NCBI RefSeq assembly: GCF_000215105.1
Contig: NC_015588.1
Coordinates: forward strand, 744,001 to 808,000
Reading direction: 5' to 3'
Source of the DNA: Isoptericola variabilis 225
GTDB lineage: Bacteria; Actinomycetota; Actinomycetes; Actinomycetales; Cellulomonadaceae
Length of the DNA: 64,000 bases
Part shown: piece after piece, positions 50,219-56,198 of the stretch
Layout: every line of letters begins with the position of its first letter
Position numbering within the stretch: position 1 is the stretch's first letter
Program-made: the position numbers and the translations under genes
Notes under the pieces: generated by a model
Told to the model about the DNA's origin: nothing
Seen by the model: only the letters and a program-made list of their open reading frames with translations
Databases searched by the model: none

Positions 50219-50274
50219 CGACGTAGCTCCTCGGTAGCCTCCCGGCCCGTTCGCCACCCGGGCGCTACGTCGCG
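50219..50274. repeat. Intergenic inverted repeat with one copy of the GCGCTAC element
   Basis: CGACGTAGC (50219-50227) and GCTACGTCG (50264-50272) are perfect arms. The right arm is part of GCGCTACGTCGCG (50262-50274), a one-base variant of the element at 2904 and 10357, and again contains the stop codon of the minus-strand gene (50265-50267). Confidence 0.7.
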
Positions 50275-50978
50275 GCCGCGCGGTAGCGGTCGACGACGAC
50301 GTCGACCAGCTCGCCGGGCGCGTCTGCGTCGGCGACGAGCAGCGGGCGGGTCGTGACGTCGCCGCCGGCCTTGACGGCGAGGTCGGCGAAGAAGCCGGGT
50401 GCGAGCAGGTACGACGCGACGACGACGCGCGAACCGGGGTTCTCCGCGCGCGCCGTGGCGACGACGTCGGGCAGCTGCGGCGCGGCGTTGGCGATGTACC
50501 CGACGCGCACGGGCCGGCCGATCCGCGCGGCGAGCCGCTCGCCCGTGGCCTCGCAGTCCGCGACCGCACGGGCGTCGCTCGACCCGGCGGCCGCGAGCAC
50601 GACGACGTCGCCGTCCTCCAGCCCGCCGGCCTCGTCGAGGCGACGCACGAGCACGTCGACGAGCCGGTCGTCGGGCCCGAGCGCGCCGCCGAGCGTGACG
50701 TCGGCACCGTCGGCGAGGGCCGCGTCGACGTCTGCGCGCAGGTCGACGTGCACGTGGTACCCGGCCGAGAGCAGCAGCGGCACGACGACGACCGCGCCCG
50801 AGCGCAGCCCGGCCAGGCACGTCGGCACGTCGGGCTGCTGCACGTCGACGAAGCCCGCCCGCACCGGGGCCTCGCCGACGAGGCGGGCGGCGACGGCGTC
50901 GACGAGCGCGGCGACCGCGCTGGCCCCGGTGGGCGAGGCGGTGCCGTGCGAGATCGCGAGGAGCGTGGGCCGGTCCAT
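50265..50978 (-). CDS. CbiX-type sirohydrochlorin chelatase
   Basis: 237 residues with two CbiX half-domains: LLAISHGTASPTGASAV (the first metal histidine) and VVPLLLSAGYHVHVDL, then a second half with VVLAAAGSSDARAV and VASYLLAPGFFADL. The family inserts iron or cobalt into sirohydrochlorin. Next to cysG, sir and cysH it should make siroheme for sulfite reductase. TAGCGT lies 7 nt before the ATG, so it may also have its own leaderless promoter, 56 bp downstream of cysG. Confidence 0.9.
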   Translation of the reverse strand: MDRPTLLAISHGTASPTGASAVAALVDAVAARLVGEAPVRAGFVDVQQPDVPTCLAGLRSGAVVVVPLLLSAGYHVHVDLRADVDAALADGADVTLGGALGPDDRLVDVLVRRLDEAGGLEDGDVVVLAAAGSSDARAVADCEATGERLAARIGRPVRVGYIANAAPQLPDVVATARAENPGSRVVVASYLLAPGFFADLAVKAGGDVTTRPLLVADADAPGELVDVVVDRYRAAAT

Positions 50979-51034: not shown

Positions 51035-52324
51035 TCACGCGTCGCTCACAGCCGTGCCCGCGTCCGTGTGAGCCCCGGTGCGAGCCGCCCACGCCGGGCA
51101 CAGCGTCACGACGTCGCCCACGACCGTCACCGCGGGCGGCTGCACCCCCGCCGCCGCGGCGCGGGCGGCGATGTCCGCGAGCGTGCCGACGGTCACGCGC
51201 TGCCGCGGTCCGTACCCGTCCTCGACGACCGCGGCCGGTGTCGACGGCGCTCGCCCGGCCGCGACGAGCGCCTCGGCCGTCGCGGCGAGCCGCGTGACGC
51301 CCATGAGCAGCACGAGCGTGTGGTCGGGCCCGGCCGGGACCTGCCCGACGTCGTCGTGCCCCGTGAGCACGCTGAACCCGCGCGCGACGCCGCGGTGCGT
51401 GACCGGGATGCCGACGGCGGCCGGCACGGACACGGCCGAGGTCACGCCCGGCACGACCTCGACCTCGATGCCGTGCGCGCGGCACGCCTCGAGCTCCTCG
51501 CCGCCGCGGCCGAACACGTACGGGTCGCCGCCCTTGAGCCGCACGACGTCGCGGCCGGCGAGCGCGTGCTCGACGAGCAACGCCGAGATCCGCTCCTGCG
51601 GCACGGGGTGGTTGCCGGACGTCTTGCCGACGTCGATCACCTCGACGTCGTCGGCGAGGTCGTCGAGCAGCGCGCGCGGGGCGAGGCGGTCGACGACCAC
51701 GACGTCGGCGCGGGCGAGCAGCCGCCGCCCGCGCGTCGTGATCAGGCCCGGGTCACCGGGGCCGCCGCCGACGAGCGCGACCCGCCCGACCCGCGTCCCG
51801 CCGTCGGGCGGCTCCGGCGCGGGCCGGACGCGGCGCAGCGGCAGGACGCCGGACTCGAGCGCGCCGGCGACCGCGTCGCGCACGCGCTGGGCGCGCCGCG
51901 GGTCGCGCCCCGCCGTCACGGCCACGGTGACCTCCGCCCCCGGCTCGACCGGGGTCCGCGCGACCGCGGGGACCCACGCGGTGGCCAGGCCGGCGTCGCC
52001 CGCGGTCACGCAGAAGACCCGCGCGGCCTCGGCGTCGGCCGCCACGGCCTCGTCGACCGCGAGGTCGCCGGTCGCGGTGTGCGCGAGCCACGCGCCGTCG
52101 AGGTCCCCGGACGCGTACGGGCGCCGGAGGTGCTCGACGGCGCCGGCCCCGGAGCGCTCGACCAGCTCCGCCAGCTCCGGCACGACGTCGGGCGCGACGA
52201 GGCGCACGCGCGCCCCGGCGTCGAGCAGCCCCCGCACGCGGCGCAGCGCGACCGGACCGCCGCCCACGACGACGACCAGCCGCCCGGCCAGGCGCATGCC
52301 GAGCGGGTAGGTCTCGTCGGTCAT
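51035..52324 (-). CDS. cysG: Siroheme synthase (uroporphyrin-III C-methyltransferase / precorrin-2 dehydrogenase)
   Basis: 429 residues. The N-terminal precorrin-2 dehydrogenase domain has LVVVVGGGPVALRRVRGLLDAGA; the C-terminal SAM-dependent methyltransferase has VALVGGGPGDPGLITTRG, VGKTSGNHPVPQERI, VVRLKGGDPYVFGRGGEE and VPGVTSAVSVPAAVGIPVTHR. Together they make sirohydrochlorin; iron insertion is likely done by the adjacent CbiX protein. The ATG overlaps the cysH stop (ATGA). Confidence 0.95.
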   Translation of the reverse strand: MTDETYPLGMRLAGRLVVVVGGGPVALRRVRGLLDAGARVRLVAPDVVPELAELVERSGAGAVEHLRRPYASGDLDGAWLAHTATGDLAVDEAVAADAEAARVFCVTAGDAGLATAWVPAVARTPVEPGAEVTVAVTAGRDPRRAQRVRDAVAGALESGVLPLRRVRPAPEPPDGGTRVGRVALVGGGPGDPGLITTRGRRLLARADVVVVDRLAPRALLDDLADDVEVIDVGKTSGNHPVPQERISALLVEHALAGRDVVRLKGGDPYVFGRGGEELEACRAHGIEVEVVPGVTSAVSVPAAVGIPVTHRGVARGFSVLTGHDDVGQVPAGPDHTLVLLMGVTRLAATAEALVAAGRAPSTPAAVVEDGYGPRQRVTVGTLADIAARAAAAGVQPPAVTVVGDVVTLCPAWAARTGAHTDAGTAVSDA

Positions 52325-53208
52325 ACGTGCAGCCCGCACTCGACCTTGTCGAGCCCGGCCCAGCGGCCGGCGCGCGGGTCCTCGCCCGGCGCGACGCGGC
52401 GCGTGCAGGGCTCGCACCCGATCGACGGGTAGCCGTCGTTGAGCAGCGGGTTGACGACCAGCCGGTGCCGCAGCGCGAACGAGACGAGGTCGTCGTCGCT
52501 CCACGCCGCGATGGGGTTGATCTTGACGAGGTTGTTCGACGAGTCCCACGTGACCAGGGGCGCCTCGCGCCGCGTCACCGAGTCGCCGCGGCGCAGGCCC
52601 GTGGCCCACGCCTCGTACCCGGCGAGGACCTGACGCATCGGCTCGACCTTGCGCATGCGGCAGCACGCCTCGGCGTCGCGCTCGAACAGGTCGGGCCCGT
52701 GCACGGCGTCCTGCTGGGCGACCGTGAGGAGCGGCCGGACGTCGACGACGGTGACGTCGAGCTCGTGCTCGACGGCGGCGCGCGTCCCGAGCGTCTCGGC
52801 GAAGTGGTAGCCGGTGTCGCCGAACAGCACGTCGACCCACGGGAGCTGCCGGCTGACGAGGTACGAGAGCACGGAGTCGGTCATGGAGGACGCGACGGCG
52901 AGCCCGTCGCCGAACTCGCGCACCGCCCAGGCGATGACCTCCTCGGCCGTCGCCTCGTCGGGCGAGCCGGGGCCCGAGCCGCCGAGCTCCTCCTGGCCGC
53001 GGCGCGCGATCTCCCACAGCTCGGTGTCGGACCGACGGCGCCGGTTCACGCCCGCGAGTCGGGCGCGGCGCTCCTCGCGGGCACGCTCGCGGGCCGCGGC
53101 CCGCTCGCGGGCCTCCGCGGCGGCGGCCGCGAGCGGCGAGGCAGGGGCGGACGGCGAGGAGGCGCCCCCGTTCGGGCCGACCCCGAGGGACACGGACACG
53201 GCGGTCAT
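52321..53208 (-). CDS. cysH: Assimilatory adenylyl-sulfate (APS) reductase
   Basis: 295 residues reducing APS to sulfite with thioredoxin. The PP-loop adenylyl domain (ASSMTDSVLSYLV, VLFGDTGYHFAET) is followed by the cysteine pairs ACCRMRKVEP and GCEPCTRR, which mark the [4Fe-4S] APS reductase rather than the PAPS form, and the catalytic ECGLH near the C-terminus. An unusual Ala/Arg-rich, coiled-coil-like extension of about 55 residues precedes the domain (EARERAAARERAREERRAR). Coupled to sir and cysG by 4-bp overlaps. Confidence 0.95.
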   Translation of the reverse strand: MTAVSVSLGVGPNGGASSPSAPASPLAAAAAEARERAAARERAREERRARLAGVNRRRRSDTELWEIARRGQEELGGSGPGSPDEATAEEVIAWAVREFGDGLAVASSMTDSVLSYLVSRQLPWVDVLFGDTGYHFAETLGTRAAVEHELDVTVVDVRPLLTVAQQDAVHGPDLFERDAEACCRMRKVEPMRQVLAGYEAWATGLRRGDSVTRREAPLVTWDSSNNLVKINPIAAWSDDDLVSFALRHRLVVNPLLNDGYPSIGCEPCTRRVAPGEDPRAGRWAGLDKVECGLHV

Positions 53209-54950
53209 CGCAGGGCCTCCTCGTCGGTCCGGTGCGCCCAGTGCGCGAACGACTCGCCGTCGGTGCGCTCGGCGTCGAACCGCCGCACGACCCGCTCGAC
53301 GTAGTCGGGCAGCTCGTCCGCGGTGACCTTGAGGCCGCGGACCGTGCGGCCGAGGCCGCCCTCGTCGCCGCGGTCGGCCGAGACCAGCCCGCCGCCGAGG
53401 TGGACCTGGAACCCGGGGACCTGGTTGCCGTCGTCGTCCATGACGATCTGACCCTTGAGTCCGATGTCCGCGGTCTGGATGCGGGCGCACGAGTTGGGGC
53501 AGCCGTTGACGTTGAGCGTGATCGGCGTGAGGTTCGTCAGGTCGCCGAGCCGCTCCTCGAGCGAGGCGATCGCCGATGTCGCGGTCGCCTTGGTCTCGAC
53601 GATCGCGAGCTTGCAGAACTCGATGCCCGTGCACGCGATCGTGTTGCGGCGGAACAGGCTCGGGCGGGCCTGCAGGCCCAGCGCGTCGAGGCCCGCGACG
53701 AGCGACTCGACCTTCTCGGCCTCGACGTCGAGCACGAGCAGCTTCTGGTACGGCGTGAGCCGCACACGGTGCGAGCCGTGCTCCTCGGCCAGGTCGGCGA
53801 CCTTCGCGAGGATCTCGCCCGACACGCGCCCGACCGCGGGCGCGACGCCCACGTAGAACCGGCCGTCCTTCTGCTCGTGCACGCCCACGTGGTCGCCCGG
53901 CGTGTCCGGCAGCGGCGCGGGCGGCCCGTCGGGCAGCGGGTGGCCGAGGTACTCGGACTCGAGCACCTCGCGGAACCTCTCGACGCCCCAGTCGGCGAGG
54001 AGGAACTTCAGGCGGGCCTTGTTGCGCAGCCGGCGGTAGCCGTAGTCGCGGAAGATCTGCACGACGCCGTGCCACACGTCCGGCACCTGCTCCTGCGTGA
54101 CGAAGACGCCGAGGCGCTCGGCGAGCCGCGGGGCGGTCGACAGGCCGCCGCCGACCCACAGGTCGTAGCCGACGCCCAGCTCGGGGTGCACGACCGGCAC
54201 GAACGCGACGTCGTTGATCTCGTGCACGACGTCGAGGCTCGGGTGGCCCGTGATCGCGGACTTGAACTTGCGGGGCAGGTTCGCCAGCGACGGGTCGCCG
54301 ATGTACCTGCGCTGGATCGTCTCGATGACCGGCGTCGGGTCGATGAGCTCGTCCTTGGCCACGCCGGCGACCGGCGAGCCGAGGATGACGCGCGGGACGT
54401 CGCCGCAGGCCTCGGTGGTCGACAGGCCGACCGCCTCGAGCCGGCGCCAGATCTCGGGCACGCTCTCGACCTCGACCCAGTGGAGCTGGATGTTCTGGCG
54501 GTCGGTGATGTCGGCGGTGCCGCGCCCGAACTCGGTGCTGATGCCCGCGATCACGCGCAGCTGGTCGGTCGTGAGCGCACCGCCGTCGATCCGGACCCGG
54601 AGCATGAAGTAGCGGTCCTCGAGCTCGTGCGGCTCGAGCGTGGCGGTGCGGCCGCCGTCGATCCCCGGCTTGCGCTGCGTGTACAGGCCCCACCAGCGGA
54701 AGCGCCCGTGGAGGTCGTCGCCCGGGATCGAGTCGAAGCCCTCGCGGGCGTAGACCTGCTCGATGCGCTCGCGGACCGCGAGCGGGTCCGACTCCTGCTT
54801 GAACTCCTCGTTGTGGTTGAGCGGCGTGGTGCCGTCGACCTTCCACTGGCCGTTGGGGCGCGCGGCGCGCGGCGGGCGGACGGGGCGCTCGGGTCGGGCG
54901 GGGCGCTCGGCGGTGCCGGTCGGCGCCGGTGCGGTGGTCTGCGTCGTCAT
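53205..54950 (-). CDS. sir: Ferredoxin-dependent sulfite reductase
   Basis: 581-residue siroheme [4Fe-4S] enzyme reducing sulfite to sulfide. Two ferredoxin-like repeats flank the cluster ligands Cys440, Cys446, Cys484 and Cys488 (ACTGIEFCK and NGCPNSCAR). TDRQNIQLHW and STEACGDVPRVI are siroheme-site segments, as in actinobacterial NirA/SirA. It has a Pro/Arg-rich 30-residue N-terminal extension. It is the first structural gene of the operon, behind a 133-bp leader containing a hairpin and, further up, a Cys-rich leader peptide. Nitrite reductase activity is an alternative but is less likely in this context. Confidence 0.94.
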   Translation of the reverse strand: MTTQTTAPAPTGTAERPARPERPVRPPRAARPNGQWKVDGTTPLNHNEEFKQESDPLAVRERIEQVYAREGFDSIPGDDLHGRFRWWGLYTQRKPGIDGGRTATLEPHELEDRYFMLRVRIDGGALTTDQLRVIAGISTEFGRGTADITDRQNIQLHWVEVESVPEIWRRLEAVGLSTTEACGDVPRVILGSPVAGVAKDELIDPTPVIETIQRRYIGDPSLANLPRKFKSAITGHPSLDVVHEINDVAFVPVVHPELGVGYDLWVGGGLSTAPRLAERLGVFVTQEQVPDVWHGVVQIFRDYGYRRLRNKARLKFLLADWGVERFREVLESEYLGHPLPDGPPAPLPDTPGDHVGVHEQKDGRFYVGVAPAVGRVSGEILAKVADLAEEHGSHRVRLTPYQKLLVLDVEAEKVESLVAGLDALGLQARPSLFRRNTIACTGIEFCKLAIVETKATATSAIASLEERLGDLTNLTPITLNVNGCPNSCARIQTADIGLKGQIVMDDDGNQVPGFQVHLGGGLVSADRGDEGGLGRTVRGLKVTADELPDYVERVVRRFDAERTDGESFAHWAHRTDEEALR

Positions 54951-54967
54951 CAGGGGGAGTTCCTCGG

Positions 54968-55027
54968 GGTCCTCGGGAGGGCGGGACGCGCGACGACGAA
55001 CGGCTCGACGGGGGTGGGCCGAGGACC
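54968..55027 (-). promoter_or_regulatory. Candidate attenuator hairpin in the sir leader
   Basis: In the transcript GGUCCUCGG (from 55027) can pair with CCGAGGACC (ending at 54968), 9 perfect base pairs around a 42-nt loop that itself can fold. It lies between the leader peptide stop (55084) and the sir ribosome site (GAGGAAC before the ATG at 54950). It could sequester the approach to the ribosome site or act as a terminator, depending on ribosome stalling. Confidence 0.45.
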
Positions 55028-55083
55028 GACGGCGCGCGCCGGTGCTCAGTTCCGCCGGAGCGGTGGGGGCTGAGGGGGCGCGG

Positions 55084-55185
55084 TCAGCGACAGCAGCACA
55101 GACAGCTGCACATGCACGTGCACGTGCGGGCGCACCCCGGCATCCCGTGACGGGTCACGAGGAGGCGGTGCGCGGCCGTGGTCAT
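55084..55185 (-). CDS. Cysteine-rich leader peptide of the sulfite-reduction operon
   Basis: A 33-residue open frame, MTTAAHRLLVTRHG followed by MPGCARTCTCMCSCLCCCR. Cysteine fills seven of the last 12 residues (CTCMCSCLCCC). It is upstream of sir-cysH-cysG-cbiX in the same direction. A -10 box (TACCGT) ends 7 nt before the ATG with no Shine-Dalgarno, so the mRNA should be leaderless. Leaderless polycysteine leader peptides that sense cysteine through ribosome stalling are known in Mycobacterium upstream of sulfur genes; this has the same layout. The peptide itself need not be functional. Confidence 0.85.
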   Translation of the reverse strand: MTTAAHRLLVTRHGMPGCARTCTCMCSCLCCCR

Positions 55186-55192
55186 GGCGGAG

Positions 55193-55198
55193 ACGGTA
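55193..55198 (-). promoter_or_regulatory. -10 box of the sir operon and leader peptide
   Basis: TACCGT on the minus strand, 7 nt before the leader peptide ATG. No good -35 is seen, suggesting an activator. Confidence 0.6.
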
Positions 55199-55232
55199 TC
55201 CCGGGGGAGGCACCTCGCGAAACCTGGTGTCC

Positions 55233-55257
55233 GCATTCTGGGACCAGCATGTGGGAC
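55233..55257 (-). promoter_or_regulatory. Direct repeats upstream of the sir operon promoter
   Basis: GTCCCACATGC and GTCCCAGAATGC (minus strand) are tandem near-copies about 14 bp apart, lying 35-60 bp upstream of the -10 box. The position and the weak -35 fit an activator site for sulfur control; the protein is not known. Confidence 0.4.
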
Positions 55258-55290
55258 GGTGGTGTCCGGGCTCGTCGGAGCGCCCGCGGA

Positions 55291-55296
55291 TAGGCT
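55291..55296 (+). promoter_or_regulatory. -10 box of the membrane protein gene at 55303
   Basis: TAGGCT ends 6 nt before the ATG; no Shine-Dalgarno. Confidence 0.55.
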
Positions 55297-55302
55297 GCGG
55301 CC

Positions 55303-55674
55303 ATGGAGTTCCTCTACAACGTCGTCGCCGTCCTGCACTTCGTCGGCTGGGCCATCGTCCTGGGCGGCTACCTCGCGTCCCTGCGCACGCCCGGGCTGTA
55401 CCGGGGCGTGTTCCACGGCGCGGCGACCGCGCTCGTGGCGGGCGCCGTGATGATGGGGCTGCTCGAGTCGGGGGCCGTCGACGCGGGCTTCGAGGTCGAC
55501 CGGACCAAGCTGACGGTCAAGCTCCTCGTCGCGCTCGTCATCGCGGTCCTCGCGTTCCTCGCCAAGCGGCAGGGCGCCAAGCGCGACAACGGCACCGGGC
55601 CCGTGACGCCGGGTCTCAAGCACACGATCGGCGCGCTCACGCTGGTCAACATCGTGGTCGCGGTCTTCTGGTGA
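55303..55674 (+). CDS. Four-helix integral membrane protein
   Basis: 123 residues with four predicted transmembrane helices: FLYNVVAVLHFVGWAIVLGGYL, a second around VFHGAATALVAGAVMMGLL, a third in LTVKLLVALVIAVLAFLA and a C-terminal IGALTLVNIVVAVFW. Conserved HxxGW in the first helix recalls CopD-like or DUF2269-like proteins, but I cannot assign a function. It has a leaderless-type promoter and is followed after 16 bp by a DUF456 gene. Confidence 0.85.
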   Translation: MEFLYNVVAVLHFVGWAIVLGGYLASLRTPGLYRGVFHGAATALVAGAVMMGLLESGAVDAGFEVDRTKLTVKLLVALVIAVLAFLAKRQGAKRDNGTGPVTPGLKHTIGALTLVNIVVAVFW

Positions 55675-55690
55675 CGTCGGGACCGGCGCT

Positions 55691-56173
55691 GTGAGCGCGC
55701 TGGGGGAGCTGCTCGTCGGGGCCGCGATCCTCGTCGGCCTCGTCGGCATCGTCGTGCAGGTGCTGCCGGGCAGCATCCTGGTCCTCGGGGCCGTGCTCGT
55801 GTGGGCGTGGGTCACGGGCGGCACGACGGCGTGGGTCGTCTTCGCCGTCGCCGCCGTGGCGATCGGCCTCGCCGAGCTCGGGCAGTGGGTGCTCGCCGGG
55901 CGGCACATGCGCCGGGCCGAGGTGCCCTGGTCGACGCTCGTGTGGGGCGGCCTCGCGGGCGTCGTGGGCTTCTTCGTCATCCCCGTCGTGGGGTTGTTCG
56001 TGTTCTTCGTGGGCGCGGTGTTCCTCGCCGAGCTGCTGCGCCGGCGCGACCGCACGGCGGCCTGGCGCGCGACGCTCGCGGCGGTCCAGGCGACGGGCAT
56101 CACGATCCTCGTGCAGCTGCTCGGCGCCCTCGTGGCCGCGGGCGCCTGGGGGGTCGGGCTCGTCCTCACCTGA
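55691..56173 (+). CDS. DUF456 membrane protein
   Basis: 160 residues with about four to five hydrophobic segments rich in Gly/Ala/Val. GIVVQVLPGSILVLGAVLVWAW and GFFVIPVVGLFVFFVGAVFLAELLRRRD are the duplicated glycine-zipper-like segments of DUF456. The function is unknown. The GTG start lies 16 bp after the previous gene, so the two probably form one transcript. Confidence 0.88.
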   Translation: MSALGELLVGAAILVGLVGIVVQVLPGSILVLGAVLVWAWVTGGTTAWVVFAVAAVAIGLAELGQWVLAGRHMRRAEVPWSTLVWGGLAGVVGFFVIPVVGLFVFFVGAVFLAELLRRRDRTAAWRATLAAVQATGITILVQLLGALVAAGAWGVGLVLT

Positions 56174-56198
56174 CGTCCTGCCACGCACCGTCAGCGGG

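Follow-up and report, generated by a model that had tools for sequence, protein, structure and literature searches.

In a 64,000-nucleotide (nt) stretch of the Isoptericola variabilis 225 genome (NC_015588.1, positions 744,001 to 808,000; hereafter the window, whose own numbering is used), a small open reading frame (ORF) on the minus strand (55084-55185; ATG at 55185-55183, stop codon at 55086-55084) is the first ORF of the cysteine/sulfur operon sir-cysH-cysG-cbiX. We consider it very likely that this ORF encodes a leaderless polycysteine leader peptide that serves as a ribosome-mediated cysteine attenuator, i.e., a cysteine-sensing leader, as in Mycobacterium. The 33-codon ORF encodes MTTAAHRLLVTRHGMPGCARTCTCMCSCLCCCR, which has eight cysteine (Cys) residues; seven of them are within the final 12 residues, as the initial annotation of this DNA had described. 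The Cys-rich tail CTCMCSCLCCCR (55087-55122, minus strand) has UGU as its final Cys codon. This assignment is further supported by a second Cys leader, before cysK in the same genome, and by the precedent of M. smegmatis, for which we rely on a passage of PMC9031893.

The predicted -10 hexamer of a leaderless promoter, TACCGT (55193-55198, minus strand), has its 3' end exactly 7 nt from the leader ATG, and in leader loci the corresponding TANNNT is located 6-8 nt, mostly exactly 7 nt, 5' of the start. Inspection by eye revealed no Shine-Dalgarno-like sequence 5' of the leader ATG. Both points were part of the earlier description, and the hexamer coordinates and the upstream sequence agree with it. 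The gap between the leader and sir is 133 nt (sir ATG at 54950), and Pfam and NCBIfam gene identities confirmed that sir-cysH-cysG-cbiX follows in the same direction. The leaderless start, direction, distance and gene content all fit a polycysteine leader peptide; that the leader controls the sir operon, as had been stated for it, is what we infer from these sequences. A longer ORF in the same frame (55084-56184) was rejected as a sign of a longer protein, because the open frame around family leader matches varies from 76 to 444 codons.

Conservation of the Cys residues in relatives had been set beforehand as a check of this assignment, which withstood it: throughout the genus and in a large part of the family the Cys tail with its -10 hexamer is retained, while the rest of the peptide changes. 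With the sir protein as query we identified 58 genomes (39 with a full-length match) and 80 named contigs, and 450 nt upstream of sir were scanned for ORFs with at least three Cys in the last 10 codons (Cys-tailed ORFs) and for TANNNT 5-9 nt before their start. From 120 sir loci, 113 were scanned (four were not framed, and three offered insufficient sequence or lacked a usable start; two of the 113, L011 and L060, are one and the same place). Cys-tailed ORFs occurred in 32 of the 113 loci, and 30 also had the TANNNT. On the opposite strand of the same 113 regions we detected one Cys-tailed ORF and none with a -10 hexamer, and the counts were the same, one and none, in 74 control regions located 2 kb upstream. 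The occurrence of Cys-tailed leaders upstream of sir is not due to chance. Among the named loci, matches were confined to members of the family of the window genome, which includes Antribacter, Cellulosimicrobium, Oerskovia, Sanguibacter and Cellulomonas bogoriensis, and the scan for Cys tail and -10 hexamer found none in Arthrobacter, Microbacterium, Agromyces, Cryobacterium, Knoellia and the other named genera. Outside the family, one locus (L029) had a leaderless-type ORF bearing two Cys, one (L059) had a Cys-rich ORF from which the -10 hexamer was absent, and two (L053 and L055) had peptides of the Ms4527A type that scored under the cut-off of that family. A weak match of the leader profile outside the family (L046) was judged to be chance on inspection.

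We also searched 150 genomes of the family, 116 of which had sir, and took 80 further upstream regions from them. A Cys-tailed ORF with a -10 hexamer was present in 52 of these regions, a Cys-rich ORF lacking the hexamer in 10, and no such ORF in 18. The ten (L215-L219, L221 and L223-L226) have Cys-rich small ORFs before sir, e.g., MCMCCCLRSS, with TANNNT absent from its usual place; their real start may perhaps be another codon or promoter. The resulting set of leaders, chosen for at least two Cys in the last 10 codons, comprises 83 loci, corresponding to 74 distinct loci (of which only L029 does not belong to the family) and 63 distinct peptides. Sequence comparison among these predicted leaders shows the small ORF, the tail of Cys codons and the spacing of the -10 hexamer.

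The peptides themselves vary widely among genera of the family (for example, a GTG-started RLSAPR...ACCCR and MARLD...RTCRCC), and what is constant is the Cys tail at the stop codon: the distance from the last Cys codon to the stop is 0, 1 and 2 codons in 21, 39 and 14 leaders, respectively, and is in this range in all 74. Such freedom of peptide length, sequence and Cys spacing, combined with a persistent Cys tail beside the stop codon and with the RNA hairpins (described below) that most leaders retain, makes it very improbable that the ORF encodes a small functional protein, such as a metal-binding peptide or the precursor of a ribosomally synthesized and post-translationally modified peptide (RiPP), instead of a cis-acting leader. 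A match of the leader peptide to a thiazolyl-peptide model would be in line with a RiPP precursor, but it is weak (E 0.27) and under the cut-off; the peptide had no Pfam match and no NCBIfam match above cut-off, and none of the four genes in the operon encodes a RiPP enzyme (no search for one was made elsewhere in the genome).

A second common feature of the leaders is the choice of Cys codon. Among all Cys codons of the 74 leaders, 214 of 351 are UGU, and the preference is graded along the ORF: counted from the 3' end, UGU is found at the last Cys position in 73/74 leaders, at the second in 56/74, at the third in 38/73 and at the fourth in 31/68. When only distinct leader peptides are considered, the last Cys codon is UGU in 62 of 63. 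Genes in these genomes strongly prefer UGC: the 31 full-length sir genes of leader loci have a single UGU among 158 Cys codons, and the counts are 5 of 110 for 27 long window ORFs, 2 of 129 for the genus loci and 12 of 170 for the named family loci. Local composition is not the cause of the UGU choice, because only 7.5% of the other leader codons end in T. It should be noted that kinship among the sequences inflates all UGU counts.

The preference extends to actinobacterial leaders of other sequence types. In leaders of the Ms4527A family (NF042936; 30 fetched, 25 read), the final Cys codon is UGU in 23 of 25, with a background of 22/160 in the f21 loci and 1/9 in the f22 loci. For NF042934, a putative leader peptide, each of the 30 top-scoring matches contains at least one UGU, and 44 of 93 Cys codons are UGU, versus 9.8% T-ending codons among the others. 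At the very last Cys, however, only 18 of these 30 have UGU; by eye, UGU encodes the Cys that closes the conserved motif. In both families (L237-L260, L262 and L267-L296) UGU usage is far above that of the surrounding genes. One cysteine tRNA is usual in bacteria, and if only one exists here, differently charged tRNAs would not explain the choice of UGU. We tentatively propose that a fixed UGU "sensor codon" near the stop, held against a strong preference for UGC, may be common to actinobacterial cysteine leaders and may mark the speed of wobble-pair decoding as the sensed quantity, and that in this family it may be joined by a covarying hairpin within the ORF and by a switch of helices between the leader and sir. 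The near-absolute UGU at the last Cys would then be a simple and general sign that the sensor includes codon identity, beyond the amino acid. It would also be a practical marker for locating such leaders in GC-rich genomes, where gene callers overlook them. The passages of PMC8632094, PMC13236596 and PMC1262725 on Cys leaders contain no mention of a UGU preference in Actinobacteria, which does not prove its absence from print.

The hairpin within the ORF, H0 (CTCGTGA/TCACGGG; 55144-55161, minus strand), is encoded by a conserved LVTxRHE stretch, in which CTCGTGAC and GTCACGAG flank the loop. Stems of at least 8 pairs were found in 48 of 74 leaders versus 2.7% of codon-shuffled leaders. For covariation analysis, 57 of the 74 leaders were picked by the peptide motif and aligned (alignment A4), and counts were made on 47 distinct rows; as rows were selected for the LVTxRHE stretch, the result describes covariation of this stretch and not the presence of H0 in every leader. 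In A4, 91.6% of cells are paired, seven of nine pairs change on both sides and there are 32 double-change cells. None of 500 shuffles equalled A4 in the percentage of paired cells, the number of double-change cells or the covariation score, one reached seven pairs and 47 reached the number of pair types, and versions slid along the alignment were at most 47.7% paired. The arms occur as GTG/CAC, ACG/CGT and GCG/CGC, despite the resulting changes in encoded residues. Comparison of the sequences supports H0 as a predicted RNA element. Its role might be in RNA polymerase pausing or in the timing of ribosome loading, which is a guess.

H0 is palindromic and lies 25-48 nt after the presumed transcription start, and it could in principle be a DNA operator for a repressor, with the leader still sensing cysteine. 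The pattern CGTGAC-N1-6-GTCACG is found at 14 places in the genome, versus one match per strand when the pattern is reversed as a control. Of the 13 places other than the leader, 3 have the 5-nt spacing that is common in other genera. However, none of these 13 copies has the 2-nt spacing of the window (seven have a 1-nt spacing), and the half-site varies among GTG/CAC, ACG/CGT and GCG/CGC with both arms in step, which the operator of a single regulator would hardly allow. We regard an operator as an improbable explanation of H0.

Further structure is predicted between the stop codon and sir. Domain I (55035-55082, minus strand) begins 1 nt after the stop codon and is closed by helices P1 (55077-55082 with 55035-55040) and P2 (55070-55074 with 55045-55049), which enclose a variable inner hairpin; in leader loci P1 starts 1-3 nt past the stop. 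P1 and P2 together have at least 11 pairs in 43 of 74 loci versus 7.8% of shuffles, and this explicit test replaced a weak one based on the minimum free energy of the stop-adjacent domain (49/72 loci versus 512/1440 shuffles). Alternative sets of domain I pairs exist, e.g., GCCCT/AGGGC with CTCGG/CCGAG. A covariance model of domain I (R1) had 56 matches in 95 loci at E of at most 1, some of them due to chance, and pairs were not counted on the alignment it produced. The 3' strand of P1 is also part of a longer helix between segments B (GGCGCGCGCCGTCGG; 55026-55040) and C (TTCGTCGTCGCGCGTCC; 54984-55000), which encloses a hairpin of segments 3 and 4 (CCTCGGC/GTCGAG; 55004-55024), all on the minus strand; P1 and B:C are mutually exclusive. 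A classic alternation of 1:2, 2:3 and 3:4 was rejected; 2:3 had almost no probability in four sequences, and for this reason B:C was adopted from the RNAalifold consensus. The only Rfam matches were two at E 0.93 and 8.6, far under gathering scores, and a known riboswitch or other Rfam RNA was likewise discarded.

For B:C, 41 of 70 intergenic sequences were aligned (13 g7 loci, 11 divergent sequences and five near-duplicates were left out). With 3:4 included, 95.6% of cells are paired versus 93.5% in column shuffles, and none of 500 shuffles was as high. Five pairs show double-sided changes (2/500 shuffles as high) in 13 cells (0/500), and there are 18 further pair types compared with 13.4 in shuffles (0/500). 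Slid versions were at most 55.9% paired. In the genus of the window, segment C has complementarity to the initial codons of sir as well, and at least 8 pairs between the upstream stretch and the sir start were found in 18 of 70 loci versus 2.1% of shuffles. In predicted folds the accessibility of the sir start codon was 0.41, versus 0.54 with shuffled upstream sequence. As with H0, it is comparison among loci that identifies domain I and B:C as putative elements.

These elements suggest the following mechanism. A leaderless transcript would begin at or beside the leader ATG, and a 70S ribosome would load on the 5' AUG and translate the small ORF. With abundant cysteinyl-tRNA, it would run through and leave; domain I would then form just past the stop and capture segment B, and segment C, together with the 3' part of B, would be free to cover the sir start, keeping sir translation low. 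When cysteine is short, the ribosome would stall at the Cys codons beside the stop, its leading edge would reach the first bases of P1 and domain I would be prevented, so that B could pair with C and free the sir start. The sign of this switch fits, because stalling should turn on a cysteine-making operon. The work of Canestrari et al. from 2020 reportedly proposes that stalled ribosomes block structures that hide the downstream ribosome site.

Several observations weigh against the cysteine-sensing leader or against this switch. By footprint arithmetic, a ribosome whose A site is occupied by the last Cys codon extends only about 3 nt past the stop. The 18 family loci without a Cys-rich ORF and the 10 in which it lacks a -10 hexamer are exceptions to the pattern, and the sequences are akin to one another and the counts are not independent. 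P1 and P2 are absent in 22 of 74 loci, including 12 of 13 g7 loci, and P1 is nearly invariant and thus has thin covariation of its own. B:C was counted on 41 of 70 sequences, with the g7 and divergent loci among those left out; its gain in paired percentage over column shuffles is small, and sliding it by -3 also gives five double-change pairs, though in 9 cells versus 13. In equilibrium folding, masking P1 raises the accessibility of the sir start codon little, from 0.413 to 0.463; the stretch from -16 to +6 goes from 0.454 to 0.471 (up in 25 of 70 loci, down in six), and the window's own start codon shows no gain (0.12 to 0.05). For the whole leader of the window, the predicted fold has no clear stability advantage over shuffles (z -0.97), and it was not used as evidence. 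Overall, the folding energies weakly support a switch between P1 and B:C.

We somewhat favor sir translation as the output of the cysteine leader. No intrinsic terminator was detected in the window between the leader and sir, where the longest T run is 2, and since none follows the leader, it is not an attenuator of transcription of the trp type. The same cysteine-sensing leader could instead act through Rho-dependent transcription termination, in which C-rich RNA vacated by the ribosome would load Rho and a stalled ribosome would shield it. Such an output would agree with the lack of an intrinsic terminator in the window and with the composition between leader and sir, where C outnumbers G in every one of the 74 loci (means of 48% and 28%, respectively), although an excess of C over G is a loose criterion for Rho. 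As to precedent, Rho was earlier proposed for Mycobacterium cys leaders in a passage of PMC1262725, whereas the mycobacterial case is cited as translational attenuation in a passage of PMC13236596. Under Rho, domain I and B:C, both of which are conserved, would need a separate explanation, and we consider termination the less likely, though a serious, possibility.

Cysteine leaders of Actinobacteria have been described before. According to passages of PMC1262725, a comparative study of 2005 predicted Cys leader peptides in Mycobacterium, P. acnes and B. longum (before cbs); as in the present case, a small ORF that precedes cys genes has Cys codons close to its stop. No conserved hairpins were reported there and the mode of regulation was left open, whereas three covarying or conserved elements are found here. 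Mycobacterial Cys leader peptides were detected by ribosome profiling (parts of PMC4633059 and PMC9094748), and those of M. smegmatis are cysteine-responsive attenuators (Canestrari et al. 2020, as cited in passages of PMC13236596 and PMC9031893). The leaderless polycysteine short ORFs of M. smegmatis, as far as these passages describe them, are similar to the window's leader in the leaderless start, the Cys run near the stop, the position as first ORF of a sulfur operon and the conservation within a lineage. They differ in peptide sequence, the window peptide being unmatched by the NCBIfam model, and may also differ in structure, as the leaders here have a covarying in-ORF hairpin and a lineage-specific helix pair 3' of the ORF; stems at the motif in five mycobacterial-type loci are only 4-6 base pairs. 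Another Cys-codon attenuator, the uORFC-8-2 motif before cysS in Rhodobacterales, has an intrinsic terminator and mostly UGC according to a passage of PMC8632094, in contrast to the absence of a terminator and dominance of UGU here.

Of the two NCBIfam families mentioned above, NF042936 probably has the same role before sir-cysH, but it carries an RRHVDLKRVC-like motif, and NF042934, found in 109 of 148 genomes of the class, is likewise an actinobacterial Cys-bearing small leader with UGU whose sequence motif is absent from the window peptide. Neither profile matched the window peptide at E of at most 10, and neither had a match in the genome at E of at most 0.01 and 0.001. The Ms4527A family is already curated, and Ms4527 is the sulfite reductase of M. 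smegmatis, so that a leader of this kind controlling a sir operon is probably no novelty in its own right. The initial annotation had seen here an extension of the mycobacterial mechanism, a reading that the comparisons support with this qualification. The case would work like the mycobacterial leaders, and what look new, relative to the literature passages cited, are the hairpins and the fixed rare Cys codon. If correct, a cysteine attenuator with defined structure would exist in a phylum whose cys leaders were reported without other attenuator parts. In much of one family there are covarying elements from which specific mutants can be predicted.

The window genome is 3.31 Mb in a single contig. 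All four operon genes are on the minus strand, with overlaps of a few bases between sir, cysH and cysG. The product of sir (53205-54950) belongs to the ferredoxin-type nitrite/sulfite reductase family and has Pfam NIR_SIR domains, and each of its NCBIfam equivalog matches was under its cut-off. The cysH gene (52321-53208) matched the NCBIfam phosphoadenylyl-sulfate reductase above cut-off, the cysG-type siroheme synthase (51035-52324) had domain models above cut-off, and the cbiX/sirB-type chelatase (50265-50978) has the Pfam CbiX domain. Two Shine-Dalgarno-like copies of CGAGGA are present 5' of sir (54959-54976, minus strand).

Upstream of the promoter, a conserved palindromic DNA box, GTCCCAGAATGCGGAC (55229-55244, minus strand), is a possible regulator site. 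In 52 of the 83 leader loci, including the window (N4 form), a match to its pattern, TCC-V-N3 or N4-TG-H-GGA, has its 3' end 43 or 44 nt upstream of the leader ATG. Of 111 loci in which no leader was detected, 6 carry the pattern upstream of sir, and of 114 control stretches taken from within sir, 2 contain it; a 16-base form of the box occurs at four places genome-wide, including that in the window. Perhaps the box binds some regulator. On the plus strand, a divergent ORF of 123 amino acids that resembles a small membrane protein (55303-55674) starts approximately 117 nt from the leader ATG; Pfam and NCBIfam searches with it gave no match.

The second Cys-tailed small ORF of this genome, MRRTHVTVVTALSCSCVSCCCRCL, precedes cysK (L297, approximately 1172073-1172147, minus strand), and its final Cys codon is also UGU. 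Because a ribosome-site-like GGAGGG precedes its ATG, this leader appears to be leadered rather than leaderless. The scan for Cys leaders before cysD and before a second CysK-like gene found none. Upstream of this second CysK-like gene, tandem repeats of the type GGTAGCGCGGGAACCGGCGA were seen by eye (L298, approximately 2715000-2715200).
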